29,964 nucleotides of DNA from a virus: IMG/VR virus record IMGVR_UViG_3300033144_007587, positions 1-29,964 of that record; one strand, written 5' to 3'. Below, piece after piece: positions 5,855-29,964 of this stretch. The position numbers and the translations under genes are program-made. The notes under the pieces were generated by a model. It did not search any database. It had not been told where the DNA came from and saw only the letters and a program-made list of their open reading frames with translations. Numbering within the stretch: the stretch's first letter is position 1; every line of letters starts with the position of its first letter.

Positions 5855-5876
5855 GATTAAACTTTTTTAATGATTA

Positions 5877-5906
5877 ATAAAAACAAACAATCCCTGATTA
5901 GGATTG
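5877..5906 (-). terminator. Rho-independent terminator-like hairpin after tail tube gene
   Basis: The gap between the tail tube stop and the chaperone start is 59 nt. It holds a perfect 6-bp inverted repeat, CAATCC and GGATTG (5888-5893 and 5901-5906), with a 7-nt loop. On the minus strand it is followed at once by TTTGTTTTTATT. This is the form of an intrinsic terminator, though the short stem suggests partial read-through, which would lower expression of the chaperone and tape measure compared with the tube. Confidence 0.6.
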
Positions 5907-5913
5907 AGTACTG

Positions 5914-6345: not shown

Positions 6346-6348
6346 AAT

Positions 6349-9078: not shown

Positions 9079-9080
9079 AT

Positions 9081-10193: not shown

Positions 10194-10830
10194 ATTTTTC
10201 TTTTTTCACTTTCGTGTACAGATCATAATCTTCACTATACATGTCAATGATTTTTGTTTCTAATCTACTATCCCTTCGTATTACATCCATGAGGTATTTT
10301 TGCAATCCAGGCTCCATTGAGCGATTGATCCACACATCGTAATTTATTTGTTTGCGTGTCGTATGCACGTCAACAAAAGCCCTGATGTCATCCAAAAGTA
10401 TATCATACAATAATATGTAATCCATAATGTCTGGATCATACATCTGGTATACCTGCGGCATTATATGTGTATCAAATACATTGTCTTCAATATCACAAAT
10501 GAATTGCCTAAACCTTTTATGTGGATTAATGATTCTATAATATGGCAATGACCTAGTGTACTTTGGTGACCCGTCATGACGCAGCTTCTCTATTTCCAAA
10601 TATCCGGAGACAATCCGTGTCAGTGGATCCCGCACACATGTGAATTTCACCATTTTAGAAGTGTTTGTCTTGTAGGCAGATTTGGATATGTTCCTTTTTT
10701 GGAAAAACATGCGGCTTATTGTGGAATTGGCATTTTTGGACACAGGAAAGAAGCAAAACTTGCCTGTGGTGTTCGTAAAGAACAACCCGTGTTTCCATTT
10801 CCTACGCACTATGTCATTGAATTCCATCAT
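10159..10830 (-). CDS. Sulfotransferase family 2 (carbohydrate type)
   Basis: This 223-residue protein shows the Sulfotransfer_2 layout: FFPVSKNANSTISRMF (about 27-42), matching the family's PKxAxTSxxxxF phosphosulfate loop, and KFTCVRDPLTRIVSGYLE (about 62-79), matching the 3'-phosphate site RDPxxRxxSxY. Eukaryotic relatives sulfate chondroitin, heparan or HNK-1 sugars. Bacterial and phage members are presumed to act on surface glycans. Length is a little short but the core is complete. The second Met (10827) could also serve as start. The ATG overlaps the epimerase stop by 4 nt, with AAGGT a few bases upstream. Together with the second sulfotransferase and the APS-kinase-like gene it forms a sulfation set. 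Confidence 0.82.
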   Translation of the reverse strand: MMEFNDIVRRKWKHGLFFTNTTGKFCFFPVSKNANSTISRMFFQKRNISKSAYKTNTSKMVKFTCVRDPLTRIVSGYLEIEKLRHDGSPKYTRSLPYYRIINPHKRFRQFICDIEDNVFDTHIMPQVYQMYDPDIMDYILLYDILLDDIRAFVDVHTTRKQINYDVWINRSMEPGLQKYLMDVIRRDSRLETKIIDMYSEDYDLYTKVKKEKYERVVKSMESV

Positions 10831-11516
10831 ACCTTTTCATGGATTATTTCCTGTAAATATTCTTCAGGTGTTTTAAACTGTAAATCTGATGTTTTGTACT
10901 TATATATTTGTTTTTTAGCATCTGCACTCACGAACGGATCCTTATCAAACATTTGACAGATGTCACTTACTGCAATCCATCCATCGGAATAAAACCGAAG
11001 TAATTCCTTATTGTGGTTGCTGAACGCAAATGGGATCTTTTTTGCCACCTCTTCAGCTGAAATGACTTGTATTTGGCTGTCCTTTGTAACAAACAACTTC
11101 ACACCCATCAACACATCATGCACAATCCCCTTAGTCATATTCTCACCTATTACAGAACACAATCTGACAATGGTCCATTTGGGACAGTAATGCTTGACAA
11201 TGCGTTCTGCGAGTTTTCTGTGAAATCCATAATTACTTTTACCAGGTGTCTCCGCATCTATAGATGATATGTAAATATATTTGCCATACTTTAAATGACT
11301 GACACGGTACATAACAGAATTGACCGATGCTTCAAAGTCCTGATTTGGATCAGATTCAGCCAGGTACTTCATACTGCTACCGTTGGCATCTATCACGACA
11401 TCATAATAGCTGTCATCCCAATCTGCACGAAATATTGGGTACCGATCACCATCCGGCAGATGATTGAAAATCTCCCGGCCAATAAACCCATTTGCTCCTA
11501 TAACTCCTATTCTCAT
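10827..11516 (-). CDS. NAD-dependent epimerase/dehydratase-like protein (extended SDR)
   Basis: This 229-residue protein has a Rossmann nucleotide-binding loop at the N-terminus (GVIGANGFIGREIF, GxxGxxG type), the strand YIYISSIDAETPG and the catalytic pair in NYGFHRKLAE (Tyr-x-x-x-Lys). These mark an extended short-chain dehydrogenase of the sugar-nucleotide epimerase/dehydratase class. It is shorter than typical UDP-sugar epimerases (about 310-340), with a reduced C-terminal substrate domain, so the substrate may differ. A role in making or altering an activated sugar for the cassette fits. It overlaps the methyltransferase upstream and the sulfotransferase downstream by 4 nt each. Confidence 0.8.
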   Translation of the reverse strand: MRIGVIGANGFIGREIFNHLPDGDRYPIFRADWDDSYYDVVIDANGSSMKYLAESDPNQDFEASVNSVMYRVSHLKYGKYIYISSIDAETPGKSNYGFHRKLAERIVKHYCPKWTIVRLCSVIGENMTKGIVHDVLMGVKLFVTKDSQIQVISAEEVAKKIPFAFSNHNKELLRFYSDGWIAVSDICQMFDKDPFVSADAKKQIYKYKTSDLQFKTPEEYLQEIIHEKV

Positions 11517-12175
11517 AATACTTTGTAAACTTTTTGTATGCTACGCCGCAGTCCACGGCTGTGTATTTCAATTGCCTTAACAGAATGTTCTTCCAACATC
11601 TCTTTCCACGCCAAACTTTCCCCACCCTTATATTCTTTCGTGGCACCCCAATCATCAAAGTATACCACGGTGCCTGGGACAATCAACCAATTCTCAAACA
11701 TAAATTTAAGTGCATCCCGCGTGGACGTGTACAGATCGACATCGATTTCAACAAGTGAAGCAGGATTCATCCTCTCCTTCTTCAGAAGATCTGTATCAAG
11801 TGTGTCACAAAGAAATCCGGGAATGAGCTTGAGTCGTTCGTTTCCAATCCCCTTTGTTATGATGTCCACAACCTTTACAATGGAACAATCGTATAACTTT
11901 GTGGAGGAAAACCCTCCTTTATCAAACTTAACATTCCTTTTATTATACTGCTGACCATTCTCTTTGGGGAAACCAATGAATGAATCAAACCCGAACATTT
12001 TCCCATACTGTATTTGCTTTTCATCCAAATACTCAGATATGTATTTGGCAGACATTCCAGACCATACCCCATATAAATAGACATCACCTATGAAAGTGAT
12101 GGCGTCCATGGCTTCTCTACGACCAGGCCTCATGGTCTTTATGGTTTCTGATATTTCTGTGAATGTTTTAGGCAT
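11513..12175 (-). CDS. TylF/MycF-like O-methyltransferase
   Basis: This 220-residue protein resembles the TylF/MycF (macrocin O-methyltransferase) family, metal-dependent SAM enzymes that methylate sugar hydroxyls in antibiotics and surface glycans. Visible marks are VYLYGVWSGMSAKY (SAM-binding part), FGFDSFIGFP, the acidic metal-binding stretch EIDVDLYTSTRDAL, and VYFDDWG near the end. This order is that of the family. It overlaps the radical SAM gene upstream by 8 nt and the epimerase by 4 nt. The leader has no SD. A sugar acceptor is likely from family and context; the exact position methylated cannot be inferred. Confidence 0.85.
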   Translation of the reverse strand: MPKTFTEISETIKTMRPGRREAMDAITFIGDVYLYGVWSGMSAKYISEYLDEKQIQYGKMFGFDSFIGFPKENGQQYNKRNVKFDKGGFSSTKLYDCSIVKVVDIITKGIGNERLKLIPGFLCDTLDTDLLKKERMNPASLVEIDVDLYTSTRDALKFMFENWLIVPGTVVYFDDWGATKEYKGGESLAWKEMLEEHSVKAIEIHSRGLRRSIQKVYKVL

Positions 12176-13379
12176 TGGTTGCTGCGTTAAATTCGTGTCT
12201 TAACTCAATAAGTTCAGATATGGACATAGTTTCATGTGTGATATTTGAATCAATATAATAGTTCTCCGGATACTCTTCCCTGATCTCATAACCATTCTCT
12301 TTGCAATAATCCCACAGCCTGGTGCCTGGAAAGACACTCAAGAGGGTCATCTTGCCTGACTGCACCCCACACTCCACATTGAGGGCGATCGTCGCTCTGA
12401 TGTCCTCTGTTGTCTCTGTGGGGGCTCCTATGATGTTGTATGAAGTCGTCTTCAGACCCACTTTCTTCGCTGTGTGAAATGCATCGAGAATCTTCTTTCG
12501 GGACATGTTGCGTTTATAAAGCCCGTTGCGAATCCTATCCACACCACTTTCAATACCCATCCGGATAGTGGTACAACCTGCTTCCTTAAGTGCTACCAAG
12601 ACTTCTTCATTGACAGTATCTGGTCTGGTTTCCACAGAGAATGGTACTGATATGGAATCCCTATACTTTGCACACAACTCAATAGTTCGCTTCTTATTCA
12701 CGGTAAATGTCTCATCAGTGAACCAAACCATATCCATATCATACTTTCTTGTAATGAAACCTACTTCATCAATGATATCATCAACTTCACGGAACCTGGT
12801 TATTTTCTCCTCATACAACTTGGCCATAGCATCACATGAACAATAGGTGCATCGGAACGGGCATCCCCGGGCGGTAAGAAACACACCAGATGCTCTATGC
12901 TCTTCAGATTCCCAATTAAGTTGTTTGGCAAAGTGCCTTTGGAACATCCCATGGTCCGGCCAAGGCAGTGCATCTACATCGGCAAGCTTGCCTGTGATGA
13001 CACTCGTCAATGACTGACCTTGTAAATAATCGAGAAGGGCATATTCTGCTTCACCAATAATTGCAGAGTCAAATACTCCAGAATCAAAAGGTGTGAATGT
13101 TGCGTGGTAACCACCTATTACAAAGGGAACATTGGTCATGATCTTCAACTCCCGAGCTAATTCCTTTACAAAGGTGTAATCCGGTGACAGGGCACTGAAG
13201 CAAATGACATCAGGTTCTATCGATTTTACCTGTATCTTGAGGAAGTTCACCGTTTCAAATGTACCATCCCACAAGAACACTTCTATCCCATTATACTTCA
13301 GATATGAAGATATGTAAGCCAGCCCCATAGGAATCTGTAGGGTCTTAGCCACGTTAGGATATATGAGTAGGACTTTCAT
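12168..13379 (-). CDS. B12-binding-domain radical SAM protein
   Basis: This 403-residue protein has an N-terminal Rossmann domain of the B12-binding type (residues 1-130, starting MKVLLIYPNVAKTLQIPMG). The radical SAM motif GCPFRCTYC follows, with Cys173, 177 and 180. Later come VWFTDETFTVNKKR and IRMGIESGVDRI, both typical of the class. The canonical cobalt-ligand DxHxxG is not present, as in several members that may not bind cobalamin tightly. Members methylate unactivated carbons or do other radical steps in natural-product, lipid and glycan pathways. It overlaps the preceding methyltransferase by 26 nt and the next by 8 nt. The substrate is unknown. Confidence 0.88.
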   Translation of the reverse strand: MKVLLIYPNVAKTLQIPMGLAYISSYLKYNGIEVFLWDGTFETVNFLKIQVKSIEPDVICFSALSPDYTFVKELARELKIMTNVPFVIGGYHATFTPFDSGVFDSAIIGEAEYALLDYLQGQSLTSVITGKLADVDALPWPDHGMFQRHFAKQLNWESEEHRASGVFLTARGCPFRCTYCSCDAMAKLYEEKITRFREVDDIIDEVGFITRKYDMDMVWFTDETFTVNKKRTIELCAKYRDSISVPFSVETRPDTVNEEVLVALKEAGCTTIRMGIESGVDRIRNGLYKRNMSRKKILDAFHTAKKVGLKTTSYNIIGAPTETTEDIRATIALNVECGVQSGKMTLLSVFPGTRLWDYCKENGYEIREEYPENYYIDSNITHETMSISELIELRHEFNAATNA

Positions 13380-14052
13380 TAAGTTTTTTTATGACCAGTA
13401 CAGAAGCATCGTCTTCTTGATTTAAAAAAGTTGTATGGGTTCTCTCAATTTTTGCGAACTCCCATCCTGGTGGCTGTATTCGTTTAAAAAACGTTTCATA
13501 ATTTCTTCTCTGGAAATTTTCCTGCAAAACTATTGTCTTTCTGGCAGACATGCATATATTGAGAATCGCTTTTCCACAATTGACATCACTGAGGTGCATC
13601 AATACCGCACTGGATACAATACAATCAACAGGAGGAACACTATTTTTCACAATATCAACACACCCCACGAAAGGGATCAAACTCAAATGATCTGTTTTGA
13701 GAGATACTATTTGCTCCTCTGATATGTCTGATCCGTAAACTTGTATTTTTCCATTGGACAACATACTTATATTGGATAGGTGATTTCCACGACCACAACC
13801 GATTTCATGAAGATCTTTGGGAGCAAGTTTTAAAATCATTTCATATAACAACTTATGCTGTGGATGTATTTGTAAACACCCTTTTTCAATATACAATTCA
13901 TTATCTACATACACATGATTCTCATCAGACAAAACAAGGGTATACGTATTCTCAAGATCTACCAGTTTTTGATTGTATAACGATGGATACCTGCCCCAAT
14001 CGTAATCATCCTCTCGCACACCTCTACGCATCTTATATGGCTTCCTTGACAT
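13354..14052 (-). CDS. Class I SAM-dependent methyltransferase
   Basis: I place the start at ATG 14052 (232 residues). A TTG at 14058 would add two residues and is less likely. The SAM-binding glycine loop is DLHEIGCGRGNHL, followed by the acidic strand end VYGSDIS and the post-motif region SSAVLMHLSD, as in Methyltransf_11/25-type enzymes. The N-terminus (YDWGRYPSLYNQKL) and C-terminus are not diagnostic. The acceptor is unknown; by context a sugar or other cassette intermediate. It overlaps the GT10-like gene upstream and the radical SAM gene downstream by about 20-26 nt. No SD is visible. Confidence 0.82.
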   Translation of the reverse strand: MSRKPYKMRRGVREDDYDWGRYPSLYNQKLVDLENTYTLVLSDENHVYVDNELYIEKGCLQIHPQHKLLYEMILKLAPKDLHEIGCGRGNHLSNISMLSNGKIQVYGSDISEEQIVSLKTDHLSLIPFVGCVDIVKNSVPPVDCIVSSAVLMHLSDVNCGKAILNICMSARKTIVLQENFQRRNYETFFKRIQPPGWEFAKIERTHTTFLNQEDDASVLVIKKLNESPTHIS

Positions 14053-14749
14053 GATCAAATTGTTTAAAAAAGTTATGGTATAAATAATCTTCTATGACCT
14101 TGTAGCCATGGAAGGCTGTTTTAAAATTGTGTTTTATTGCTGGCATGCGTAACCCGGTAGCAAAACAATCAATGAGGATGTCAGACCAGTAATCTTTTAC
14201 CGATGTGTTGTGGATGGCCACCTGGTACATATACGGGGCATATACTTCTGCCCTTGCTTCTGGGGGAAATGGTTTGTATCCTCTACCAACAACGTGTAAT
14301 ACATCAGCAAATTCTTTCACAACCTCGTGCCTGAAACGATGTCCCACGGCTTTGCGCTTATCACCAACTACGGTAAGAACGAGCTCTGACTTGGGATAGA
14401 TCTTCCACTCATGAGAATATAATGAAGAACCACTGCCCGGGCAAAAGACTCTTTTTTTCTCAGGAAATAATTCCAAGAAGTCCAAATCATGAGAAATGAT
14501 ATAGTCATATTGCTCTGCATATTTCTGTAAAACATTATAAGCTTTGAAATTTATCACAGCAGGCTCTATAATCCACGCTACCTGCAAAGTATCGGCCATA
14601 CGTTTTACAGTGGGGAGATAAGCGGCAGTATACACATTGACTTTTCTGATTCTATTATCCCTCTTCCACTGCACATGCTGTGGCGAGTCATATCCGTTGA
14701 AACAAGGGACATGCCTGATATTTTTATCCATGAGGGTTATTTCCATCAT
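14033..14749 (-). CDS. GT10-like putative glycosyltransferase
   Basis: This 238-residue protein has no single strong family motif. The segment YQVAIHNTSVKDYWSDILID, followed by CFATGLRMP, parallels the acceptor/donor region of GT10 fucosyltransferases (family: FENSxxxxYxTEKxxDxxxxGxxP). The usual TEK is replaced by SDI here. Earlier parts (YIISHDLDFLEL; FCPGSGSSLYSHEW) look like GT-B N-terminal strands. The likely role is sugar transfer to a surface glycan, perhaps with fucose or a related sugar, next to a GT11 fucosyltransferase-like gene. The altered TEK motif makes the donor uncertain. Alternatives are another GT-B family or a non-catalytic relative. It starts with a double ATG overlapping the carbamoyltransferase stop. 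Confidence 0.55.
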   Translation of the reverse strand: MMEITLMDKNIRHVPCFNGYDSPQHVQWKRDNRIRKVNVYTAAYLPTVKRMADTLQVAWIIEPAVINFKAYNVLQKYAEQYDYIISHDLDFLELFPEKKRVFCPGSGSSLYSHEWKIYPKSELVLTVVGDKRKAVGHRFRHEVVKEFADVLHVVGRGYKPFPPEARAEVYAPYMYQVAIHNTSVKDYWSDILIDCFATGLRMPAIKHNFKTAFHGYKVIEDYLYHNFFKQFDHVKEAI

Positions 14750-16293
14750 GACTTTTCAAATAAATAATTTTCTACTACTACGTAATCCATCTCGGTATTG
14801 TATAATATGTGTAGAGCGTCTTCAATTGTTGTCAGAATAGGCTTTCCCTTTATATTGAAAGATGTGTTCAAAAGGACATCTTTGCCATAATCACTGCTCA
14901 TGTACCCCAACAAGCTATGCAGGAATGAGTTCTCACTTGCCTTCACTGTCTGAATCCTGGCCGTGCCATCAACATGTGTAATTGCTGGAAGACGGACGTG
15001 TGATTTAACCCGCGTACAAAATGACATAAATGGAGATTCTCCGGAAAACTCAAAATACTTCTCCCTTTTCTCATACTGGACCACCGGCGCATAGGGACGA
15101 TACCATTCCCGGAACTTGACCTTCTTATTGAGTATGTCTTTCATATCCGGATACGTGGGATCACACAGTATACTCCTGTTACCAAGCGCACGTGGTCCCA
15201 CCTCGGAATCACCCTGCACCACACCTATAATATTTCCCTGGTCCAGAAGTGTGGCAATCCGTTTAATATTGCATTTTTTTGCCTTATATTTTTTCACATA
15301 CATCTCGATCTTGTCCGCATCTAAGACAGGAAATCCTTTGTACGTGATATCAAGTTTTTCATCTGAGTTTATCTCCCGGGCGATCATGCCAAAGGATAGA
15401 CCGCAATCATTGGGATTAGGTGGGACAAACACAGGATTATCTATACCACGCCGTAGTTCTTCATTGAACAGGACGTTCAAAGCACACCCGCCCGTAAGAA
15501 CAATAGGAAGATTGTAGTTGTCTAATACACTGTTTATTTGTTCCAAAACAAGTGCCTCAAAAACAAATTGTGAAGTAGCGGCCAGATCATATGCATTCTC
15601 TCCGGACAATGAGTTCACACCAAGATACAGGCCTATATTAAGTTTTTTCAAAGACTTGGGATGATGCCCACTGCAGTGCATGTAAAATTGCTTCACAGGA
15701 CGTAACCACTCCTTACGTATATTACCATAAGCAGCTAAACCCATTTTCTTCCCGGCAAACGATAACAGATAACTTCCCCAATTCAACTTGTTTTCCTTGG
15801 TCACCTCGTTCAAGGGCATTGCCAAGAGATTGTATCCGGATCCCACTCTTGGATGGGTGATCGATTTTATTTTGTTAATTGTACCATCCTTGACATGGTA
15901 TATGTTGAAGTAAGAAACCTTGCCGTAATCCCATCCCCCGTCGTCATAAGAAACCACAATAGCTTCTTTGAATCCGGAAAGGTGGTATGCCCCGGCAGCA
16001 TGTTCCAGGTGGTGGCCACCTTCTTTAAAGGCCTTTATATCCCAAATCTCTTTGAGGTAGGTAATATGTGAGTTTGGGACACCGTGCGTAATACAGAGAT
16101 CAAAAACAGGTAGTCCAAATTCTTTTTCAATCAATTCGGTTATGATCCGATATATTAGTTTGAAATCGGCATAGGTGTTAAGCGTAAAGTACCTTTCCTT
16201 TACCAACCGCTCCAGTTCGAAAATACGAACCTTGCCGTCAGAGTAAACGGTAATATTTGCGTCATGATGTCCGTAAATACTTATAATCATCAT
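14746..16293 (-). CDS. Carbamoyltransferase (NodU/CmcH family)
   Basis: This 515-residue protein has the full carbamoyltransferase pattern. The N-terminus GHHDANITVYSDG is followed by GGHHLEHAAGAYHLSG (metal-binding His94, 95, 98), SYDDGGWD, VLTGGCALNVLFN (about 265-277), QGDSEVGPRALGNRSILCDP (360-379), KVKFREWYRPYAPVV and LLNTSFNIKGKP near the end. The family moves a carbamoyl group from carbamoyl phosphate through carbamoyl-AMP to a hydroxyl of a sugar or antibiotic: NodU on Nod factors, CmcH on cephamycin, and GdmN/NovN-type enzymes. Both the TsaD-like catalytic part and the C-terminal domain are intact, so it should be active. It overlaps its neighbours by 4 nt each. A sugar acceptor is inferred from context. 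Confidence 0.93.
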   Translation of the reverse strand: MMIISIYGHHDANITVYSDGKVRIFELERLVKERYFTLNTYADFKLIYRIITELIEKEFGLPVFDLCITHGVPNSHITYLKEIWDIKAFKEGGHHLEHAAGAYHLSGFKEAIVVSYDDGGWDYGKVSYFNIYHVKDGTINKIKSITHPRVGSGYNLLAMPLNEVTKENKLNWGSYLLSFAGKKMGLAAYGNIRKEWLRPVKQFYMHCSGHHPKSLKKLNIGLYLGVNSLSGENAYDLAATSQFVFEALVLEQINSVLDNYNLPIVLTGGCALNVLFNEELRRGIDNPVFVPPNPNDCGLSFGMIAREINSDEKLDITYKGFPVLDADKIEMYVKKYKAKKCNIKRIATLLDQGNIIGVVQGDSEVGPRALGNRSILCDPTYPDMKDILNKKVKFREWYRPYAPVVQYEKREKYFEFSGESPFMSFCTRVKSHVRLPAITHVDGTARIQTVKASENSFLHSLLGYMSSDYGKDVLLNTSFNIKGKPILTTIEDALHILYNTEMDYVVVENYLFEKS

Positions 16294-17108
16294 TTCTCAA
16301 ATTCAAGATCAATACGCACCCACTCCTTGGGGCATATGTCACAGTTAGTATATTTTGAATCCACACTCCACCTGGAAGCTGCGATTATTGTTTTCTTCAT
16401 GTTTGGTATAAGCCATGCACCCCACCAGCTAAAACAACTATTTGGGATTATGGCGTGATCACATTTGCTCATAAAGCTCATTGTCGCGTAATCAGTATAA
16501 TCACGACTGTCCAAAACGTAATTAAATTCTCCTTTCATATTTGCAGCCACCCAGTCCCGGGCATCCGTAAAACATACAAATTGGGGATCTTTAAACCATT
16601 CCCGCATCATCTGCATTCCCCTGAGATAAAAATCTCTGGGCACGAGTCCGTGTTTCTGTTTTGCCACACCGTCTGTTCTTTCTCCCCTACGCACATGCAC
16701 AAAGACAGATGGTCTTGTCCGCAACATAGTTTCAAAGTAAGCCATGGATTCATGGTAGGGATCATTCTTCAATGTAAACTCCGCAAGAAGTGTATTCCTG
16801 TAATTTCTGAAGTAATCGGCATCCTGGAAATACCCACTATACACCACATTCCCAAATGGACGAAGTAGGCTCGGGTCATATCCAGCATATTTTTCCGCTC
16901 TTTTTTCATGATTAACAGCAGTGGACTCATTATTGGTAATATTGAATTTATCCAAGACATAGGGGTAATTATACACGTGGTTGCTATTATACCAACTGGT
17001 GTCAAGCACCAAGGATGCGTCATGCTTCAGAGACTGGGCCCTCCCAAAAGCATACTGGAACATCTGATTTCCAAGCCCTCCTTTTAGTATAATTTTGACT
17101 TCTTTCAT
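16290..17108 (-). CDS. GT11 alpha-1,2-fucosyltransferase-like protein
   Basis: This 272-residue protein carries GT11 hallmarks: GGLGNQMFQYAFGRA at 10-24, YSGYFQDADYF at about 90-100, VFVHVRRGER at about 135-144 (the HxRRGD donor-binding motif), and NSCFSWWGAWL near residue 225. Bacterial members add fucose or related sugars from GDP-linked donors to O-antigen, capsule or oligosaccharides. One change is seen: the usual Asp after RRG is Glu. No GDP-fucose synthesis genes are in view, so donor sugar would come from the host. It overlaps the GT25 gene upstream and the carbamoyltransferase downstream by 4 nt, with no SD. Confidence 0.93.
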   Translation of the reverse strand: MKEVKIILKGGLGNQMFQYAFGRAQSLKHDASLVLDTSWYNSNHVYNYPYVLDKFNITNNESTAVNHEKRAEKYAGYDPSLLRPFGNVVYSGYFQDADYFRNYRNTLLAEFTLKNDPYHESMAYFETMLRTRPSVFVHVRRGERTDGVAKQKHGLVPRDFYLRGMQMMREWFKDPQFVCFTDARDWVAANMKGEFNYVLDSRDYTDYATMSFMSKCDHAIIPNSCFSWWGAWLIPNMKKTIIAASRWSVDSKYTNCDICPKEWVRIDLEFEK

Positions 17109-17764
17109 ATCAACGGTTTTTTAAACCTATCAACATAATCACGGTGACCATTCTGGATATCGGAATGATCTGCCCTCTGCCACGCCATTGGTGGATTGAA
17201 AGCATATGCCTTTAACGTGGTCTGCAAAGTTCTGAGATACCCATCCACAGAATCCTTCAAAAAAGGAAAACCACTGTACCATATATTCAATACTTCTGCG
17301 AAAACTCTTTGATTCACAGCATACGCATGTGTTGATGTCATTTCAGTAATGGCAACAACATGTTCCTTAATACCCTCTACATACTGCCCCACACCATTTA
17401 ACCCACCCAGATATAACATATCCCAATCAGAGGGGACATTTTCCGACCAGAGATCGAACTTTTCCGAGAAATGATCCACAAATTCACAATCATCCTCAAA
17501 AACCAACACGGATTGCACATCATCCTTCATAGCATCTCTTAATATCGATATATGTGTAGATATACATCCAGACATACCTTCAAATCCTCTCAGGGGTGGT
17601 TTATATGCGTCCGGTTTCCATCCCCATGTATTTCCTTCAACTGCGCGAATACGACCAGCACTTATTCCATTAGCAAGAAGCAACTGATCCATCCTCTTTC
17701 TGCGATCTGCTCGTTTAGGAAGATTGATATAACATATCCGGTCGAAGAATGTATTAATCTGCAT
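17105..17764 (-). CDS. GT25-family (LPS-type) glycosyltransferase
   Basis: This 219-residue protein has the GT25 order: YINLPKRADRRKRM near the N-terminus (family YxINLxxRxDR), GCISTHISILRDA, and VLVFEDDCEF (the acidic EDD metal/donor motif), then STHAYAVNQRVF. Relatives include LgtB/LpsA enzymes, which transfer galactose or glucose in lipooligosaccharide, and the collagen galactosyltransferases. Its length is about normal for short bacterial and phage members. A strong AAAGGAGG SD lies 6 nt before the ATG (17771-17778), inside the upstream glycosyltransferase gene, which it overlaps by 11 nt. Acceptor and sugar cannot be read from sequence. Confidence 0.9.
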   Translation of the reverse strand: MQINTFFDRICYINLPKRADRRKRMDQLLLANGISAGRIRAVEGNTWGWKPDAYKPPLRGFEGMSGCISTHISILRDAMKDDVQSVLVFEDDCEFVDHFSEKFDLWSENVPSDWDMLYLGGLNGVGQYVEGIKEHVVAITEMTSTHAYAVNQRVFAEVLNIWYSGFPFLKDSVDGYLRTLQTTLKAYAFNPPMAWQRADHSDIQNGHRDYVDRFKKPLI

Positions 17765-18440
17765 ACCATGCCTCCTTTACCCATTGTGCATCCACCTGGT
17801 TTGGTCTGGGGGATCCGTGAAAACATATGATACGGGCATCCTCTTTTAATCCAAATCGTTTTACATGCCTTTTATAACTACAAATCCCACTAACCACATT
17901 TTGCCAATGGACATAACGCTTACCGGCTTGTTTCAATTGGAAACTCAAATAATCCTGATCTCCTGCAAATTTACGGGAGTACAACTCATAGTTGAACTGC
18001 TCAAAGAGGAAGTTGAAAGACCCATCATTTCTCCAACTCATAATCGCAGATGCTACATAATTTTCCCACCGTGATCGTGTTGGGTTGAAAGGACGCAAAC
18101 CAATGAAATCAAAATCTTGCATCAACAGATCATCGATGTTGGCAAGAATGATTGTATCCAAATCAAAATAAAGGATGCGATCTGCATCAACCAAGTCTGG
18201 CCTAAACAACTCCACCTTTGACCACCATCCATGGTAATCAAACCTTAGTGGTAAAGCAAAAGGTTGTAGTACATCTGCCCCTGTATGTACCATATTCACA
18301 ATTGAACGACCTGTATCTGTCAAGCAATAGAAATCATAAGGTACGGTAATGTTCTTCTCCAACATGCCTTTCAAACGAATTACATCAATTGGGTGAAAAT
18401 CACCTCCAGATTTCAATACACATATTATTGCCGTTTTCAT
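17754..18440 (-). CDS. GT-A glycosyltransferase with DxD motif (GT8-like)
   Basis: This 228-residue protein opens with the strand TAIICVLKSGG, has GWWSKVELFRPDL, and then ILYFDLDTIIL, a clear DxD nucleotide-sugar and metal site. The later GDQDYLSFQL and ICFHGSPRPNQVD fit GT8-type or phage glycosyltransferases, where the FHGxPxP segment lies near the active site. A strong GGGAGGAG SD lies 6 nt before the ATG (18447-18454). The gene overlaps the DUF115-like gene by 4 nt and the GT25 gene by 11 nt. Such genes often follow capsid genes in environmental phages. Whether the acceptor is a virion protein or a host glycan is unknown. Confidence 0.85.
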   Translation of the reverse strand: MKTAIICVLKSGGDFHPIDVIRLKGMLEKNITVPYDFYCLTDTGRSIVNMVHTGADVLQPFALPLRFDYHGWWSKVELFRPDLVDADRILYFDLDTIILANIDDLLMQDFDFIGLRPFNPTRSRWENYVASAIMSWRNDGSFNFLFEQFNYELYSRKFAGDQDYLSFQLKQAGKRYVHWQNVVSGICSYKRHVKRFGLKEDARIICFHGSPRPNQVDAQWVKEAWYAD

Positions 18441-19234
18441 TTCCTTCTCCTCCCTCGTATTATCTTAACCTGTGGACTGGCCGGTGGGGGTAATTTTGTA
18501 ATGTCCACAACCGGAACCGGTAACCCCTTTAAAACATCCTTAACAGTCATTTTCGGAAAAATATCAATTGCACTGTCAGGACTAGCATTAATAATCACAA
18601 TCCCACGAACTGCAGCATCTCTGGCAATCGCGGGAAACCCGGACATATGGCGTATAAATGGGAGTTTTTCCTTTTTACGTGGTGTGTACTTACCGGGACC
18701 GGAATAGTCTGAATGCCAATGCTGTCTGCCATCATCACCCAATTTCATATCAAATCCCAATAACACAATACGTTTTGCACCCATATTCGCTGCCACACTT
18801 ATTGCCGCTGCACCACTGTTGCCGTTCCAAGCGACTTTGTGTGGGTCCGGAGTTATTCCTTTGTTATGGGAATTGTCCTTGGGAGTATGTTTGACATTCT
18901 CAGAACGGAATCTGCCATTGGCAAAATAAGGATGGCTCGTCACCTTTAATCCTGTAAATTCTGCCAGTAGTTTCCTGTGCTTAAGATACCAACCCTTATC
19001 TCCCCAGAACACAACATCAATCCAGTTACCTATCAGAAACGCTGTATTGACTCCAATCGCATGTTTTTTGTGAATGGAATCCATATAGGGTGAATAGGCA
19101 CTGAGCGGTAAATCCTGAGACATCACATTCTGGATGATTTCTTCCGGGACATCAAATTGTCTCGGTAAAGATGGTCCTCCACCTAATATCCAACATTCGC
19201 CGCCTTCCCATATTCTAGGAATGCGCCAGGCCAT
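18437..19234 (-). CDS. DUF115-like / 'norphogenetic' Rossmann protein
   Basis: This 265-residue protein begins with CWILGGGPSL (residues 14-23), a nucleotide-binding-like glycine loop. It then has GVNTAFLIGNWIDVVFWGD, NGNSGAAAISVAANMGAKRI and VLLGFDMKLG followed by QHWHSDY. This order is that of the DUF115/MptE-like proteins found in many phage structural regions, some annotated as norphogenetic protein. The fold is related to sialyltransferase-like and 6-hydroxymethylpterin diphosphokinase-like enzymes; function in phages is not known. The C-terminus is Pro-rich and ends in a basic GRRRK tail. Start and preceding stop share one base (TAATG). It may belong to the head region or open the glycan cassette. 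Confidence 0.75.
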   Translation of the reverse strand: MAWRIPRIWEGGECWILGGGPSLPRQFDVPEEIIQNVMSQDLPLSAYSPYMDSIHKKHAIGVNTAFLIGNWIDVVFWGDKGWYLKHRKLLAEFTGLKVTSHPYFANGRFRSENVKHTPKDNSHNKGITPDPHKVAWNGNSGAAAISVAANMGAKRIVLLGFDMKLGDDGRQHWHSDYSGPGKYTPRKKEKLPFIRHMSGFPAIARDAAVRGIVIINASPDSAIDIFPKMTVKDVLKGLPVPVVDITKLPPPASPQVKIIRGRRRK

Positions 19235-22897: not shown

Positions 22898-23878
22898 TTA
22901 CGTATTTGCAGGGATTGTCTCCCTGAGTGTTTCCCATTCTTTTCTGTATGGCAATGCCAAACAGCGGCATTGTGGGTGTAAGGGAATCATATTCATTGCT
23001 ACTTCCAATGTAAATGTTTCTCCTTCATGTGCTTCACATCGTTCACATACCCTATGATCTCCAGCAGTTTTCCATTCTGCCAAGATTGTAACGCCTTGCA
23101 TTCCCCAATTCATGTATTCTTGGATCATGCCTTGATGGTGGGCCCGGATGATTTCTGTTCTTGCAAGTATCTCTGCTCTTCGCGCTGCCGGTATATACCT
23201 CCCCAAACTATCAGTAATACCTAGTTCACCCGCGCCCGTACCATCGATTACTGCAACAAGTTTCCTTGCCAGCAAGCGGGGATTATCTCCATCAGCTATT
23301 CCTTGTGCCAGGATCCTGCTTATAATCTGATCCATTTGCGCTGTAACTCCTTTCAATTCCGCGAATACCCGGGTATACAACACACCCAATCGATCTAAGT
23401 GGAGTGGGAGTCCCACTGCGAGATCAATTCCACCTGTAGAATCAATTGATGGGATGTTAACATCATGCCTACGTATCTCGTATCTTGCCCGTTGGATACC
23501 GCGTTTATACGAATCCAATATGTATTTATTTGTCCATGCTCCTTCTAATCCAACACCGAATTGCTCGAGTTCTCCAGTAGTGAGAATACCAACTTCAACC
23601 TGGTGTTCTAGCCATCGCAGGAATGCCTCCAGTTTATCCACACTACGTGGAAAAGCAAATGCCCCAGCCCCGGGTATTTGTATCTGATTGAACAAAAAGG
23701 AGCCGGGAGCATTTCCCTCACTTAAACCAAACGCGTTGTTCACACCCACACCTACCCTAATAGCACGAATCAATTCCTTAAAACGTCGTTTCATATCACG
23801 AGCAAACGCATTCCGCAATGCCGTGGTCCGAGTTGGATCGACTTGCGTAAGTATTCTATGTGTAAGTACTTCACTCAT
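22898..23878 (-). CDS. Minor head protein (Mu gpF / SPP1 gp7 family)
   Basis: This 326-residue protein has the C-terminal signature of phage head morphogenesis proteins: ARTEIIRAHHQGMIQEYMNW, then WKTAGDHRVCERCEAHEGE and LHPQCRCLALPY. The Cys-x2-Cys pair together with HPQCRC probably binds zinc. It lies right after the portal, as is usual. Family members bind the portal, are packaged in small numbers in the capsid and help DNA ejection or assembly. The N-terminal half is helical with FAFPRSVDKLEAFLRWLEHQ. The ATG overlaps the portal stop by 8 nt, without an SD. No ADP-ribosyltransferase or toxin fusion, sometimes found at the C-terminus of this family, is present. Confidence 0.9.
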   Translation of the reverse strand: MSEVLTHRILTQVDPTRTTALRNAFARDMKRRFKELIRAIRVGVGVNNAFGLSEGNAPGSFLFNQIQIPGAGAFAFPRSVDKLEAFLRWLEHQVEVGILTTGELEQFGVGLEGAWTNKYILDSYKRGIQRARYEIRRHDVNIPSIDSTGGIDLAVGLPLHLDRLGVLYTRVFAELKGVTAQMDQIISRILAQGIADGDNPRLLARKLVAVIDGTGAGELGITDSLGRYIPAARRAEILARTEIIRAHHQGMIQEYMNWGMQGVTILAEWKTAGDHRVCERCEAHEGETFTLEVAMNMIPLHPQCRCLALPYRKEWETLRETIPANT

Positions 23879-25301
23879 TATTTACTGTTACTGCCACTGC
23901 TTCTTCACTGATTATGGACTCCTCTGTAGGAGTTACTGTTTTTTCTTCTTCTGTCATTTCAGATCGTGCCTGCTCTACCATGGCCTTTTCCTGTGGGCTC
24001 AATCCCAACATGATATCAACAAAAGTATCTGGTGGGATGATTGTCTCAGCCAATGGATTCTGTGAGTACTCCCTGAGAGCCATTGCCCGGGCTTTACCAA
24101 CCTCTACACGTTCCTTCTCATTCAATACAAATAGGTCTTCCCAGGCAATATCGTAATCAGCATCCTTTGGTTTTGGGAGAATCCCAAATTCCATACAACG
24201 ATCTGCAAACGGCCTGACAATGTTGGGTTCGGCATATTCTTCACGCCGACCAGTCACAAAGGATAGGTATTCTGATTTATCCTGACTACTGGCCAGTTCC
24301 CCACGCTCAGAACCGGTGAGGATCCTCTTTGGGATGCCTGTAACCGCAGATATCATCTGTATCTGTACATCGACATGATCACCTGGCTCCGCGATCTGCT
24401 GGGCTAGTGCCTGGAGGTCAATTCCTTCATTAACCAAAATTCTTCGCATATTGTGTTCAAACTCAGCAATCTGATCTTTCAAATCAGCTTCCATCTCCGC
24501 TGTGAGTTGGAAATCAGGATCCACTTTCCCCTGATAACCAGGACGAGCTCCTCGCCAGAACATCTCAGCATCACCACCCACGATCTTCTCCAAGTCCATG
24601 AGCCTGTTATACACGGCTTCAAGTCTGGGAATCCCAAAAATCTCAGATTCCAAACTCTCTCCAATGACATGTATGACACGGGAATGGTGTACGATGATAT
24701 CTTCTGTCACACCGGCTTCAGCTACCTGCACCCTGACCTCATAAGTCTTTGGCAGACCATATCTGGGATTGCCTGTATCTGTAATATAATCTCTGATTAT
24801 TGCTTTATCTTGTCCAAACGGTTTAATATAAAGCAGTTTATGTTTTTTATTTTTACGGACTTCTCTTTTGAAGCTGTCACGCCCGTTTGCATCATCCAAT
24901 CCCAATAAAAGCACACCATATTGACCAATGCCAGAAAGACGATCTAAACGAGCAAACTTATTTTTGAGATTAAGTTCTTTATTAAGAGTATCCCATGCAG
25001 CTTCAAGTGGTGTATCTTCTTTACCAGGATCGTCTATGATACGCATGGCACCCTGCCACGTAGCACCGACCGGACGATCAATTATGGCTTTTGCAATATC
25101 CTGGCGTTGGTACCGAACCAAAAAGTCTTCATAGGTCAGAGTTGTTTTGTATCCCAACGCTTCATACAGATCACGGTCTGTGCCATATTGTGCACCTAAT
25201 TTAGAAGCAAGATTGGCACGACTCATCAACTCAGTAAACACCTGTAACTTCTGATTGAGGATCAACCCCTCTGACGCTTTATTATTAACCACTCGTTCCA
25301 T
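23871..25301 (-). CDS. Portal protein (DUF1073-type)
   Basis: I choose ATG 25301, which gives 476 residues starting MERVVNNKASEGLILNQK. The frame is open further up to a Met at 25388, but that would overlap the small membrane gene by 76 nt. The segment RQDIAKAIIDRPVGATWQGA is typical of the DUF1073 portal family, as are IFGIPRLEAVYNRLMDLEKI and the C-terminal ITG-rich region TGIPKRILTGSERGELASSQ. The portal is the dodecameric ring at the packaging vertex. The C-terminus is acidic. No terminase gene is in the window; it is expected upstream (beyond 29964) or elsewhere. Neither candidate start has a good SD. Confidence 0.9.
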   Translation of the reverse strand: MERVVNNKASEGLILNQKLQVFTELMSRANLASKLGAQYGTDRDLYEALGYKTTLTYEDFLVRYQRQDIAKAIIDRPVGATWQGAMRIIDDPGKEDTPLEAAWDTLNKELNLKNKFARLDRLSGIGQYGVLLLGLDDANGRDSFKREVRKNKKHKLLYIKPFGQDKAIIRDYITDTGNPRYGLPKTYEVRVQVAEAGVTEDIIVHHSRVIHVIGESLESEIFGIPRLEAVYNRLMDLEKIVGGDAEMFWRGARPGYQGKVDPDFQLTAEMEADLKDQIAEFEHNMRRILVNEGIDLQALAQQIAEPGDHVDVQIQMISAVTGIPKRILTGSERGELASSQDKSEYLSFVTGRREEYAEPNIVRPFADRCMEFGILPKPKDADYDIAWEDLFVLNEKERVEVGKARAMALREYSQNPLAETIIPPDTFVDIMLGLSPQEKAMVEQARSEMTEEEKTVTPTEESIISEEAVAVTVNNE

Positions 25302-25312
25302 TATATTATGCT

Positions 25313-25543
25313 TTAAATTTTCGTTAGTGCTGTGAGCAAAAGACCACACAATCCTACGACTGCCCCCACTAGCAACGATACCATCCATCGCTGACGGACG
25401 TCCTTCCTATCTCGGATCTTCTGTTTTAATTCCCTTTCCGTTTCCATCTTAACCTGGAATTTCATAAGTCCTATCACGTTGCTATCCACAATCCATAACT
25501 TATCGTCCATTTGTTTTTGATTGTCAATAGATTTACTAGCCAT
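25313..25543 (-). CDS. Small C-terminal-anchored membrane protein, holin/XhlA-like
   Basis: This 76-residue protein has a charged, helical N-terminal part (about 1-50, rich in Lys, Glu, Arg and Gln, coiled-coil-like) and one hydrophobic segment (WMVSLLVGAVVGLCGLLLTA) at about 53-72, ending Thr-Lys-Ile. The shape resembles XhlA-type holin partners and other phage membrane proteins, but no sequence signature is decisive. It is 5 nt after the lipoprotein gene and 11 nt before the portal start. If it is a holin, lysis genes would lie unusually close to the head module; an endolysin is not seen in the window. Confidence 0.6.
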   Translation of the reverse strand: MASKSIDNQKQMDDKLWIVDSNVIGLMKFQVKMETERELKQKIRDRKDVRQRWMVSLLVGAVVGLCGLLLTALTKI

Positions 25544-25548
25544 AGATT

Positions 25549-27714
25549 TTAACGAATCACCATTCGTGCCTTCGATAACAACTTCATTAAATACCTTATA
25601 TGTTCTAGGGCTTCATCCAAATTATATATAGGGATATCATTAGCTACTGCATATTCAAATACACCACCTACCCCCACAAGCGCATCCTTTACATTCTCCC
25701 GATATGTGTGTACAAACATTATTACCATGCGTTTTTCAGCAAGGCATATATCAAGTTGTGCTTTTATAGCTGCCAGTTCGTCGGTGTTCGGTGAGTTTGA
25801 CAGATTATATAAATTACCAGCTGGTACGTTTATGTCCAACGGCATACTTTGTAACCTGAACAAGTCTGGGTACAGGGAACAAATACCGTAGGTGCTATCA
25901 GCTGTGTAATTAGCAGCTGTGTGATGCGTCTTTAATCCCAATTTATGAGCGATGTAATCAATGGTGGGATTGGAACTGCTATGACGATTTCCCATATAGT
26001 GATTGACTGTGAGATTCTCTGATCGCATGGCATTAACTGTATTGGTCATATCCAACTCTATACGATCGACATAATACAATGTCGAATAGTCGATGTCCGA
26101 GTCATTGTTAGCCACCATTATATAATCATCGTCTTGTAACAGGCGTAATGTATCAAATCCATGGTACTGACTGTTCCCGGCTTCGGCTGGGTGTATTCCC
26201 ACAAAGGGTTCTATATCGAATGGGTCGAGAAAGGGTTTCCAGGTGTCATAAATATCATTAAATCCATCATCCAGGCGAAACACCAACATCCCAGTATCAG
26301 CCTTCAGGCGTCCCATCTGCAAATACCCACTACCATCACAAACCGTATCACCTGTGGCGTCCCGTACCGTTGTAATTATATCATTGGTTTGGGCAAGGAT
26401 CCTGAATTGACTGTCCCCGGTTTTGTCGGTATCATATAAGAATATGCTCGTCAACCGACGGCGATCCCACTCTTCAACTGAATTGTCATCCCAATCCACA
26501 TACAGCTTTCCTCTGTATCCTGTATTCAATGCATCATATATCCATTTTTGATTGAGTTCCGTGATATGGAAGTCTGACGGGTTATCGGAATCATAATAAC
26601 CGAATTCAGATCGTGCCGTATCAGCCCAAATGGTAGAGTTCGATCGATCAAAGAAGGCGTGTGTAAACCGGAGCTTGCAATCGCGCAAGGTGACGTAATC
26701 ACTGGGACCGCGTTCGTATACGAGCCGTGACGCCACCCAAAACGTAGCAGCCACACGTGATGGTGTATTTATAGTCCCATCGACCGAGCGTCCAATTTGC
26801 CGCATCGTCGTGGCGTTCCACCCATTCTCGAATGCATCAAATCCATAACGTAATAACCAATCGTGAGTGGCAGTGTACACAATATCAGCAGTGGTTACTT
26901 CAGAATACGCAAAATCTATCTGATTACCACTTATATCAGCCGCTGCCCAAACGTTAGGCACATGGACCTGTAAGTTGTACACCACACTATCCGTTTGACA
27001 TTGAACCAGGGTTTTAATAGCTGAGAACTTCTTGACATTCGTGATAACAAAATACTCTGAATTAAACTTCCAAGAAGTGAAATTGTTATCTGTATTAAAA
27101 TCATACGCTGTTATATCTTGACTGTACGGTGTAATCACAGCATCACCATCCTGGTCATAGATATTGCAGGTGATGGCGCTGGTAGTAACTGTGACAATAA
27201 CATCATACACCTCAGTACTGTCAAACAGGGCATTTATGTCTGCGCCAATCGCAGAACTGTATCCCGTGGTACCATCTGCTGACAGGATCCAGAAATTCCC
27301 ATTGAAGCTCTGGAAATGTAATCCTCTCTGCTCATCTAGTACACCACCTCCAAATTCTACGATATCATCCGAACCTTCTTGTGGAAGAAAATCCATACGC
27401 TTAAACTGAAAGTACAGGGTATAGCTGGTTCCAGTAAACCATTTTTCCCCATCCCGCGAAGCATCTCCCAAGATCTGCGCACTGCCGTCGGCGTCCTTCA
27501 TAAACGTAGGGATAAGGATGGTCACATCTTTAGTACCAACCTTGTCCTCCAATATCAAGTCGCTACGCTTATCGATGCGGAATACCAAATCGTCTTGGTA
27601 CAACAACTGATTACCAGGCAACGTACCTGTTCCTACAACGTTCAGGGTATTTGAAGTCTGACCACTACAAGACAAGCAAATTAATGCCGTTAGTATAATT
27701 GAGAATAATTTCAT
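25549..27714 (-). CDS. Lipoprotein with LamG-like and polysaccharide-deacetylase-like regions
   Basis: This 721-residue protein begins with MKLFSIILTALICLSCSGQ, a lipoprotein signal with Cys16 as probable lipidation site. The first part (about 40-230) is beta-rich, with TSYTLYFQFKRMDF and IYDQDGDAVITPY, like a concanavalin/LamG module. The C-terminal part (from about 485) looks like a NodB-type deacetylase: MLVFRLDDGFNDIYDTW (motif 1, DDG), VNHYMGNRHSSSNPTIDYIA, and VIMFVHTY. The usual motif-2 HxxxH is not seen where expected (YIMVANNDSDID), so activity is doubtful or altered. Possible roles are a fibre or tailspike-like protein, a surface enzyme, or a protein altering the host envelope. It overlaps the preceding gene by 4 nt and has no SD. 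Confidence 0.65.
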   Translation of the reverse strand: MKLFSIILTALICLSCSGQTSNTLNVVGTGTLPGNQLLYQDDLVFRIDKRSDLILEDKVGTKDVTILIPTFMKDADGSAQILGDASRDGEKWFTGTSYTLYFQFKRMDFLPQEGSDDIVEFGGGVLDEQRGLHFQSFNGNFWILSADGTTGYSSAIGADINALFDSTEVYDVIVTVTTSAITCNIYDQDGDAVITPYSQDITAYDFNTDNNFTSWKFNSEYFVITNVKKFSAIKTLVQCQTDSVVYNLQVHVPNVWAAADISGNQIDFAYSEVTTADIVYTATHDWLLRYGFDAFENGWNATTMRQIGRSVDGTINTPSRVAATFWVASRLVYERGPSDYVTLRDCKLRFTHAFFDRSNSTIWADTARSEFGYYDSDNPSDFHITELNQKWIYDALNTGYRGKLYVDWDDNSVEEWDRRRLTSIFLYDTDKTGDSQFRILAQTNDIITTVRDATGDTVCDGSGYLQMGRLKADTGMLVFRLDDGFNDIYDTWKPFLDPFDIEPFVGIHPAEAGNSQYHGFDTLRLLQDDDYIMVANNDSDIDYSTLYYVDRIELDMTNTVNAMRSENLTVNHYMGNRHSSSNPTIDYIAHKLGLKTHHTAANYTADSTYGICSLYPDLFRLQSMPLDINVPAGNLYNLSNSPNTDELAAIKAQLDICLAEKRMVIMFVHTYRENVKDALVGVGGVFEYAVANDIPIYNLDEALEHIRYLMKLLSKARMVIR

Positions 27715-28685
27715 GCACTTTGTTTTCTACGTGTGTATATCATACATAATAATAATAAGTAAAACGACTCCGGTATTACTCCGATGCCCAGAGCATCCAT
27801 GTACACTTCAATGGCGTTGGTTAATACTCTGATTTGATCTGCTGTTAGTCCAGCACCAATAAAGGCTGCCGCGCTTTGTCGTGGTGATACGCCACTAATG
27901 GCAGCAGCATGTCGGGCCAAGATGTATATAGTTTTATTTGGTAGTGCCGTAGCTGCTTGTGAATTGGAATATACACTCGCACCATTCTTGTACAATGCTC
28001 GGGCATCTGCTGCTGTTCGGTTTATAATATAGAACCCACGAGCATCAGTTACGCTTGACACAAACCCCGAACCCGCATCGTTAATTCTTATAGAGGTTTG
28101 GTTTGATGCATTACGCGCGAACAACCACAAGTCATTGCTTCCGTCATCCAATCCCATATCCACGTAGGCATTGGAAGCATTGTTAGTGCGAATATAGGTA
28201 CCAAACGATGCCGAGTTGAGTGAGAAGTTGCTGGTAGCAGTTTCAACAGTGGGATTAAAAAATGTTTCCAATGCCCCAGATATTACAACATTCCCTGTAA
28301 ATCCCTCATAACGATCCCACGTTGGATAGTGAGCGTCATCATCTGTTACTGGTAGTACATTATACTTAGCCAGATTTACCCAATTCCATTTAGCTTCTGC
28401 AGAATCTGTTTGAGCATATATCCAAAGTGCATCCAGTGCATCCCAAGTAGAGAAACTGTCCACGAGGGTTTTAACCAAGGTATTCTGCCAAGTCAGGGTA
28501 TCTCCCGTTGGGTCGGTCGTCATGGAGTCCAACAGCGCCTGATATTGTGTCTCGTACGCCGCAGACGCTATAGTTTGCATAACATACAAATTATGCTTCG
28601 AATCCTCAGGAGACAAGTTGATCGTAGTTTGTCCGAAGACAAGCGACGGTATCAATAATAATAATAAATAAAGTAGCTTTTTCAT
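27711..28685 (-). CDS. Secreted LamG-like phage surface/fibre protein
   Basis: This 324-residue protein starts with a clear signal peptide (MKKLLYLLLLLIPSLVFGQ), with probable cleavage next to Gln, as is common in Bacteroidota. The region WDALDALWIYAQTDSAEAKW then NWVNLAKYN, and DRYEGFTGNVVISG, match the pattern of phage tail proteins with a concanavalin-like domain. The LamG-like part spans about 125-310 and ends in GAGLTADQIRVLTNAIEVYM, a usual closing helix of such domains. The last residues are hydrophobic then basic (FYLLLLCMIYTRRKQ), which might anchor the C-terminus. It starts 1 nt after the upstream stop with an A/T-rich leader. A receptor-binding or cell-surface role is inferred. Confidence 0.65.
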   Translation of the reverse strand: MKKLLYLLLLLIPSLVFGQTTINLSPEDSKHNLYVMQTIASAAYETQYQALLDSMTTDPTGDTLTWQNTLVKTLVDSFSTWDALDALWIYAQTDSAEAKWNWVNLAKYNVLPVTDDDAHYPTWDRYEGFTGNVVISGALETFFNPTVETATSNFSLNSASFGTYIRTNNASNAYVDMGLDDGSNDLWLFARNASNQTSIRINDAGSGFVSSVTDARGFYIINRTAADARALYKNGASVYSNSQAATALPNKTIYILARHAAAISGVSPRQSAAAFIGAGLTADQIRVLTNAIEVYMDALGIGVIPESFYLLLLCMIYTRRKQSA

Positions 28686-28686
28686 C

Positions 28687-29964
28687 TTATTTAAATTTTA
28701 CGTACACCGGATAACTATCATAAAAATTAGCCGCGTTGATATCCGTCCGGAACCACCCATCAGCATTCGGTGGGTGTATTCTATTAAAACGCATAGCCCC
28801 TGACAGACTTGATAGGGTTACTTCCGTCCAAGTCGTACCCAGATCAGACGATATATAAATCTTATTATCTGCTGTAGCTGCGCTCGCAGCTATAATTGTA
28901 TTACCAGAAATAATCATATCTGTTAATACTCCACTAGCAGCATATATCTTAACATGATCCCCTGTACTGGCAATATCATCCGGATGGCATTTAAAGATGC
29001 CCAGTTCCGGAGCACCACCATCCGTAGCATCTGAAACAAAATATATTGTGTCGTTGACGAAGTTTAATCCCGCAGACTTATATCTTGTCGCGTTAGACGC
29101 GGACACAACATTTGTCCATACCCAACTATCCCCGCCTACAGTGTATACTCCCTTCAACCAATGGTTCTCATACAACGGTCCTGCTTGATCAAAGTCCCCA
29201 GTGGTTACATAAAACGTATTATTGTCCTCATCACAGGTAATGGAATGTATGTGCCGGCAGATACTGTCGTTCGTGGCATCACCAAGTAATTCACCGGTCA
29301 CCCCGCCATCGAACGTGCCATCATCCCGATAGGTTGGGTTCTGTCCAAATGTATACGCCACCTTGATCGTTACGCCATTGTCTCTGGTATAATACACATT
29401 TGACGGATTCGCTCCATCCCCAATATTGCCATAGTTACCCCACACCGCCATTTCCGCACCACCTACTGTAAATGATTGTATGGCATTCAACTGCCGGAAG
29501 TAATTCCCGGGGAAATCGACATCGTCAGGGGTATGTGGGGTATATGGAGAATCGTCAGTGTCCTTGACCGTAATCTCCGCAGAAGATGCAAACGACGCCG
29601 CCGCTCTGTATATCTTGTCCTGGGTAGCGAACATCACATCCCCATTGGCAAATATGTAAGACATCTCTATCAGATAGGCATCAGCAAACGATAGAGAACT
29701 GTAACTGGCACCACCATCAGATGAATGATATATCTTAGTCAGATCAGTTGCAAACCGGTAATCATCGCGTTGACAATCCACATGGAACGCTTCTCGCTTG
29801 TAATAAATATCGTCTGTTTCGTAATAATCGGGAAGGGCTTGGAGTTGCACAACGTACGAGGATATAATACTATTGAGAGTATTAAACTCAGCTTCCGTGA
29901 ATCCTTCCCCATACATGAACATCATCATGCGATTCATTGTACCTGGTCCCGGTGATCCACTGAT
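28687..29964 (-). CDS. BNR/sialidase-like propeller protein, 5' end cut by window edge
   Basis: The frame is open to the right edge (425 codons in view). The Met at 29937 is probably internal, because in-frame codons upstream read ISGSPGPGT without a stop. The first visible part (EGFTEAEFNTLNSIISSYV) resembles the closing helix of a LamG-like module, so a LamG domain may precede it outside the window. The rest is a beta-propeller with BNR-type Asp-box repeats: HSSDGGASYSS, TRDNGVTI and SSDLGTTWTEV. Tail or surface proteins with this layout bind or cut glycans. Catalytic Arg/Tyr of sialidases cannot be confirmed. Ends in YVKFK. Confidence 0.65.
   Translation of the reverse strand: MSGSPGPGTMNRMMMFMYGEGFTEAEFNTLNSIISSYVVQLQALPDYYETDDIYYKREAFHVDCQRDDYRFATDLTKIYHSSDGGASYSSLSFADAYLIEMSYIFANGDVMFATQDKIYRAAASFASSAEITVKDTDDSPYTPHTPDDVDFPGNYFRQLNAIQSFTVGGAEMAVWGNYGNIGDGANPSNVYYTRDNGVTIKVAYTFGQNPTYRDDGTFDGGVTGELLGDATNDSICRHIHSITCDEDNNTFYVTTGDFDQAGPLYENHWLKGVYTVGGDSWVWTNVVSASNATRYKSAGLNFVNDTIYFVSDATDGGAPELGIFKCHPDDIASTGDHVKIYAASGVLTDMIISGNTIIAASAATADNKIYISSDLGTTWTEVTLSSLSGAMRFNRIHPPNADGWFRTDINAANFYDSYPVYVKFK

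Follow-up and report, generated by a model that had tools for sequence, protein, structure and literature searches.

Tailed phages are generally considered to produce their virion proteins, and put them together, inside the cytoplasm. The Llp protein of phage T5, a small periplasmic lipoprotein that is made early, shuts a receptor (PMC9586334). Separately, phages of Porphyromonas gingivalis carry Q-rule signals on genes of unknown function, and a use of host secretion has been proposed (PMC10367356). Note that the Q-rule, meaning Gln at +1 of signal peptidase I (SPI) signals, is expected for Bacteroidetes hosts (PMC5837995). In the open-licence literature, we found no report of signal peptides on tail-fibre-type proteins.

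Here, we describe two adjacent genes, FGQ and LIPO, that join export signals to proteins of a phage structural operon. Like Llp-type lipoproteins, their products are phage-encoded, predicted to be exported to the envelope and to face the periplasm, and may keep progeny off the infected cell and debris. Unlike Llp-type proteins, they are 324 and 721 aa long, involve fibre-derived lectin modules from domain-swapping cassettes, and are encoded amid late genes, in one run with the head genes (timing is judged from gene order); in addition, the LIPO lipobox is not canonical. The P. gingivalis genes are similar in being Bacteroidetes phage genes with Q-rule signals. The difference is that, here, the signals are on proteins of tail-fibre or lectin type, whose genes occupy one slot throughout a clade. 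The phrog_18498 fibre domain, of phiN3 YapH and Microcystis phage Mwe-JY13, is the same lectin domain as that of FGQ by sequence and fold, but those proteins have neither a signal nor the hydrophobic-RRK tail described below. Finally, exported LamG and beta-helix proteins of Bacteroidota hosts, including T9SS cargo, share the Sec signal, Gln at +1 and similar domains. They differ in that the slot proteins searched here show no T9SS C-terminal domain (CTD), are encoded in a phage operon, and include a lectin whose closest relatives are phage proteins. We file the finding with exported phage envelope proteins, as a new variant.

The window, that is the whole stretch of DNA analysed, spans 29,964 bases and represents an entire IMG/VR contig, with all main genes on the minus strand. 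Every feature located below, from the portal gene to the contig end, is on this strand. Gene order begins with a protein that combines the end of a LamG-like domain and a BNR/sialidase-type propeller (28687-29964; gene truncated at its 5' end by the contig edge), which has weak Pfam matches to Sortilin-Vps10 and BNR and homologues in relatives L090 and L062. FGQ (27711-28685) and LIPO (25549-27714) follow, overlapping by 4 bases. Next are a 76 aa protein with a C-terminal transmembrane (TM) segment, a holin-like neighbour that has a homologue at the equivalent position of L099 (25313-25543 in the window), and the portal gene (23871-25301; phrog_146, 2.1e-66). Genes for a MuF-type head protein, a protease, a small head protein and the major capsid protein come after the portal, and then a glycan/sulfation block, tail genes, tape measure and tail hub. 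FGQ and LIPO thus sit within a tailed-phage structural operon. Note that the portal reading frame, as listed, has 29 extra codons at its start, which reach into the 76 aa gene (25301-25388); the portal start is codon 30 (M30 is invariant in homologues). The glycan/sulfation block, of about 11 kb (7950-19234), lies between capsid and tail genes. It encodes an APS kinase, two sulfotransferases, two radical SAM proteins, methyltransferases, a NodU-type carbamoyltransferase, GT11, GT25 and further glycosyltransferases. Relatives keep an MptE-like gene adjoining the capsid gene and a sulfotransferase adjoining the first tail gene; the glycan genes between vary.

Both reading frames lie where the sequence-only reading placed them, and signals are present at both N-termini. 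In FGQ, the 324 aa product comprises a signal peptide, a LamG/ConA-type lectin and a C-terminal hydrophobic tail. The Sec signal, MKKLLYLLLLLIPSLVFG (28632-28685), ends LVFG and is followed by QTTINL, placing Gln at +1. By our rules, this is the Bacteroidetes SPI layout of basic N-region, hydrophobic core and Gln at +1 (PMC5837995), and there is no lipobox. The N-terminus of LIPO, MKLFSIILTALICLSCSG followed by QTSNTL, ends LSCSG before the Gln. Judged by sequence, it can be read in two ways: as a lipoprotein signal of residues 1-15 (27670-27714) ahead of Cys16, or as an SPI Q-rule site between G18 and Q19. The lipobox has Cys at -3, Leu at -2 and Ser at -1, which is non-canonical. Hence, although signals on both genes are real, the earlier description of them as textbook was too strong for LIPO. 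Our signal calls came from our own rule set, rather than SignalP or LipoP, applied to genes called as greedy longest open reading frames. Among 33 window genes, only FGQ and LIPO were flagged. FGQ matched no Pfam family at E<=1 and, hence, no PEP-CTERM model, although signals so short can be missed.

Sampling of relatives depended on the search used. The major capsid protein of the window identified 22, most with 53-65% identity, and a portal profile identified more than 550 loci. We kept 80 of the latter and used 79 non-redundant portal contigs for signal counts. Pattern searches with LIPO, FGQ or portal alone returned no close relative, or one weak match (L002); given the yields from capsid and portal profile, this emptiness reflects a limit of the method. 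The isolate collection searched held no close relative (its best capsid match reaches 32.7% identity) and the window portal found none in 395 Bacteroidota genomes.

We defined the slot as the region between terminase, or contig start, and portal, and counted its genes of >=150 aa. A strict signal required Gln at +1, or a lipobox, and one rule set was used throughout. Across the 79 contigs, strict signals occurred in 27 of 96 slot genes and in none of 604 genes elsewhere (Fisher p 1.5e-25, which overstates independence, since the contigs share ancestry and include some near-duplicate proteins, as in L098/L109; the contrast is still large). A looser rule gave 34 of 96 and 4 of 604, respectively. 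Half of the contigs with a slot gene of at least 150 aa (19/38) had one signal or more. Since only two window genes were flagged, and strict calls were absent from the non-slot genes of relatives, a chance pair of adjacent signals is very unlikely. Gln was at +1 in 23 of 30 SPI-type calls; this, together with the signals themselves, points to Bacteroidota as the host phylum. Export signals on fibre-like proteins recur across the clade. On our best reading, the viruses are a large clade of uncultured Bacteroidota siphophages, and the slot is a swappable cassette upstream of the portal.

We then considered what the signals are attached to. The sequence-only reading had assigned FGQ a concanavalin-like layout, and an AlphaFold model and fold searches agree. 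The domain (aa 40-302; 27780-28568) matches phrog_18498 over aa 47-299 (1.4e-21) and phrog_26223 over aa 39-284 (4e-14), and is 25-34% identical to C-terminal domains of phage tail-type proteins. The model, built with 11 sequences (pLDDT 76.5, pTM 0.75), is a lectin jelly-roll. Its fold matches a domain of arabinanase AbnA (VIA Z 17.5, rmsd 2.8 over 192 residues) and, in BFVD, Sinorhizobium phage phiN3 YapH (E 1.6e-21). Modelling and homology thus identify FGQ as a LamG/ConA-type lectin, kin to the C-terminal domains of phage tail proteins. PDB matches to toxin-binding domains and sialidases were set aside as a guide to function, since they reflect only the common lectin jelly-roll. In other phages, this domain belongs to signal-less proteins of tail-tip, spike or short structural type. 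The lectin profile had four matches in the 395 Bacteroidota genomes: three phage-like proteins without a signal, and a weakly matching host protein that is probably a chance hit. Full-length, signal-bearing homologues of FGQ occupy the same slot in L063 (32%) and L071 (35%).

These three signal-bearing FGQ proteins end with a hydrophobic stretch and then RRK (VIPESFYLLLLCMIYTRRKQSA in the window, 27714-27779; VISEMMWLILLLIPNIRRKEEEFKIAA in L071). By alignment, the tail of FGQ is common to L063 and L071 only; signal-less relatives stop short of it, so that signal and tail occur together only in slot homologues. The same type of hydrophobic-RRK tail is on an unrelated lectin in L074. Codon differences in the tail, between L071 and L063, are 9 synonymous and 2 nonsynonymous. 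For the signal and linker, between L044 and L071, they are 10 and 4. Because changes are mainly synonymous, both signal and tail appear to be kept as protein sequence.

A second fibre-like part, the N-terminal module QKIEDL...TDLLIIDQ...GISI..FF, has swapped domains behind it. We found eight contigs by scanning with the module only, four of them already in the portal set. The signal precedes the module at the same offset in all eight. In isolates, the 39-aa module had no match.

These data bear on whether the signals might be an artefact, either not real or not translated, with true starts further in. Our reliance on a rule set of our own making leaves some room for this. However, both starts are coupled to preceding stops: FGQ begins 1 nt past the stop upstream of it, and the start codon of LIPO shares bases with the stop codon of FGQ (ATGA). 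Within FGQ, no further ATG occurs before codon 36. The starts therefore look right, and this check favours those annotated. With the synonymous change in the signal region, the constant offset from the module and the absence of strict calls in 604 other genes, we consider an artefact very improbable and have rejected wrong starts.

Fibre character is evident in further signal carriers. The L100 protein (5904-8057) matches six tail-fibre PHROGs at E <1e-5 (best 2.8e-10) from residue 33, just past the signal. In L060 (2237-4726), a motif right after the signal resembles baseplate/tail-fibre connectors of other phages, a weak match (best E 6e-3). The L044 protein (2380-3174) matches a virion structural family (8.3e-10). 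For LIPO, being fibre-like is less certain. Only its segment of approximately aa 322-467 (26314-26751) is common to other slot proteins (L090, 32%, 3e-9; L079, 25%, 4e-4), and profile searches placed LIPO in no known family. Note that fibre homology alone may lead exported proteins to be labelled 'tail fibre' in annotation.

A clade in which host export signals are joined to fibre and lectin modules would be making either exported envelope effectors or fibres assembled by a route that is undescribed for tailed phages. The second option, that these are true virion fibres which mature outside the cytoplasm, is a serious rival, although an unlikely one. The proteins would leave the cytoplasm, lose the signal, perhaps acquire glycans or undergo oxidation in the periplasm, and join tails once lysis lets the periplasm and cytoplasm mix. 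It is serious because G398 and G400 have no obvious fibre other than the tail hub, and because the fibre module is retained. Indeed, the full fibre layout continues past the signal, with N-terminal module, swapped tip domains and tail-fibre PHROG matches, and the module protein of L165 is encoded where fibres usually are, downstream of the genes for the tail hub. The Bacteroidota O-glycosylation sequon is in modest excess among slot proteins with a signal (105 against 71 expected, z 3.9), and numbers 81 against 78 expected in those without; the excess fits export, but weakly, and was given no weight. Such maturation could draw on the phage-encoded glycan and sulfation genes. Conversely, lipobox signals and the hydrophobic-RRK tail predict retention of the proteins at membranes, and separate, signal-less fibre-like proteins coexist with them in L100, L063, L090, G397 and G399. 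We also know of no described tailed phage that matures fibres outside the cytoplasm. An explicit two-compartment scheme, with receptor-binding fibres passing through Sec, maturing in the periplasm and attaching to tails only at lysis, is in our view doubtful. The maturation would comprise signal removal, pyroglutamate formation and, possibly, glycosylation with phage-encoded sugar or sulfate chemistry.

We favour placement in the host envelope, because of the Q-rule signals, the hydrophobic-RRK tail of the FGQ branch, the lipobox-type signals in the slot and the separate signal-less fibre-like proteins. To this extent, the earlier suggestion that the proteins are put on the infected cell is preferred over ordinary virion fibres; exposure at its surface is the part that found no support. 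In ten slot proteins (both window proteins and eight from relatives), no T9SS CTD was found up to E 0.1, and T9SS cargo thus lacks support as an explanation. Surface lipoproteins of Capnocytophaga have a lipoprotein export signal (LES) after the Cys, either K-(D/E)2 or Q-A-(D/E)2 (PMC5080379). For LIPO, the Cys16 reading gives a mature N-terminus of C-S-G-Q-T-S, with the acidic LES absent. Taken together, the missing CTD and LES make a periplasmic, or periplasm-facing, location more likely.

Slot genes adjoin holin-like and endolysin genes in L044, L041 and L164. With the head genes also adjacent, gene order makes late expression likely. A role in lysogenic cells, also raised by the sequence-only reading, found no support: the genes are co-directional with head genes, and the window showed no integrase.

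Our leading explanation, which we hold at about even confidence, is that the cassette encodes fibre-derived glycan-binding proteins with host-type Sec signals. These would be sent to the host envelope at a late stage, perhaps to mask receptors or exclude superinfecting phages. Slot proteins would be made late, with head and lysis genes. Sec export would be followed by an SPI cut leaving an N-terminal Gln, or by lipidation. The C-terminal hydrophobic-RRK tail would probably keep FGQ at the membrane, and a lipid anchor might do so for LIPO. In the periplasm, outer membrane and lysate, lectin domains might then bind the kind of glycan recognised by the phage's own fibres. The result would be that virions are kept off the infected cell and debris. 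If so, the proteins would offer a new means of preventing superinfection or unproductive adsorption. The roles named by the earlier reading, namely superinfection exclusion, adhesion and glycan change, are candidates.

Several observations count against envelope placement. The fibre N-terminal module is retained, which would be needless for a pure decoy, and in G398 and G400 the tail hub would be the only obvious fibre left. The small size of Llp-type proteins, and the early production of T5 Llp (PMC9586334), also contrast with slot proteins. Furthermore, the tail has a hydrophobic core of about 11-12 residues, which is rather few to cross a membrane.

The cassette might instead encode exported enzymes or adhesins that alter capsule, exopolysaccharide or biofilm, for progeny release or host behaviour rather than exclusion. 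Several slot proteins have pectate-lyase-like beta-helices or, by eye, SGNH-hydrolase-like ends, and the LIPO C-terminus looks NodB-like by eye only. However, the FGQ lectin has no catalytic domain. In LIPO, LDDG is present but, by eye, the second His motif of NodB, H(S/T)xxH, is absent. Identity as a NodB polysaccharide deacetylase found no support, with no Pfam match up to E 10 and no PDB relative. Nor was a T9SS domain, for release outside the cell, found in the ten slot proteins. We consider this explanation improbable. A single-sequence structure model of LIPO was discarded (pLDDT 32).

Some signal-bearing and neighbouring proteins are of separate interest. L065 has an open-ended one of 861 aa past the portal (4448-7030), perhaps the same type of cassette elsewhere. 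Small signal-bearing proteins lie upstream of the portal in L036 (283-1098) and L041 (479-1484). Within these regions, L036 634-1098 and L041 888-1484 look to be one protein type common to both phages; the small L041 protein is near an amidase and is perhaps lysis-related. The 273 aa protein of G399 (67953-68774; L155), beside an endolysin and a TM gene, resembles the caspase-like fold by eye, and L109 8655-9476 looks similar. Also in L109 (1565-5659), two slot proteins have matches to the tail tube protein and, at 481 and 881 aa, greatly exceed it in length, as if modules of the tail tube had been joined to fibre-like parts.
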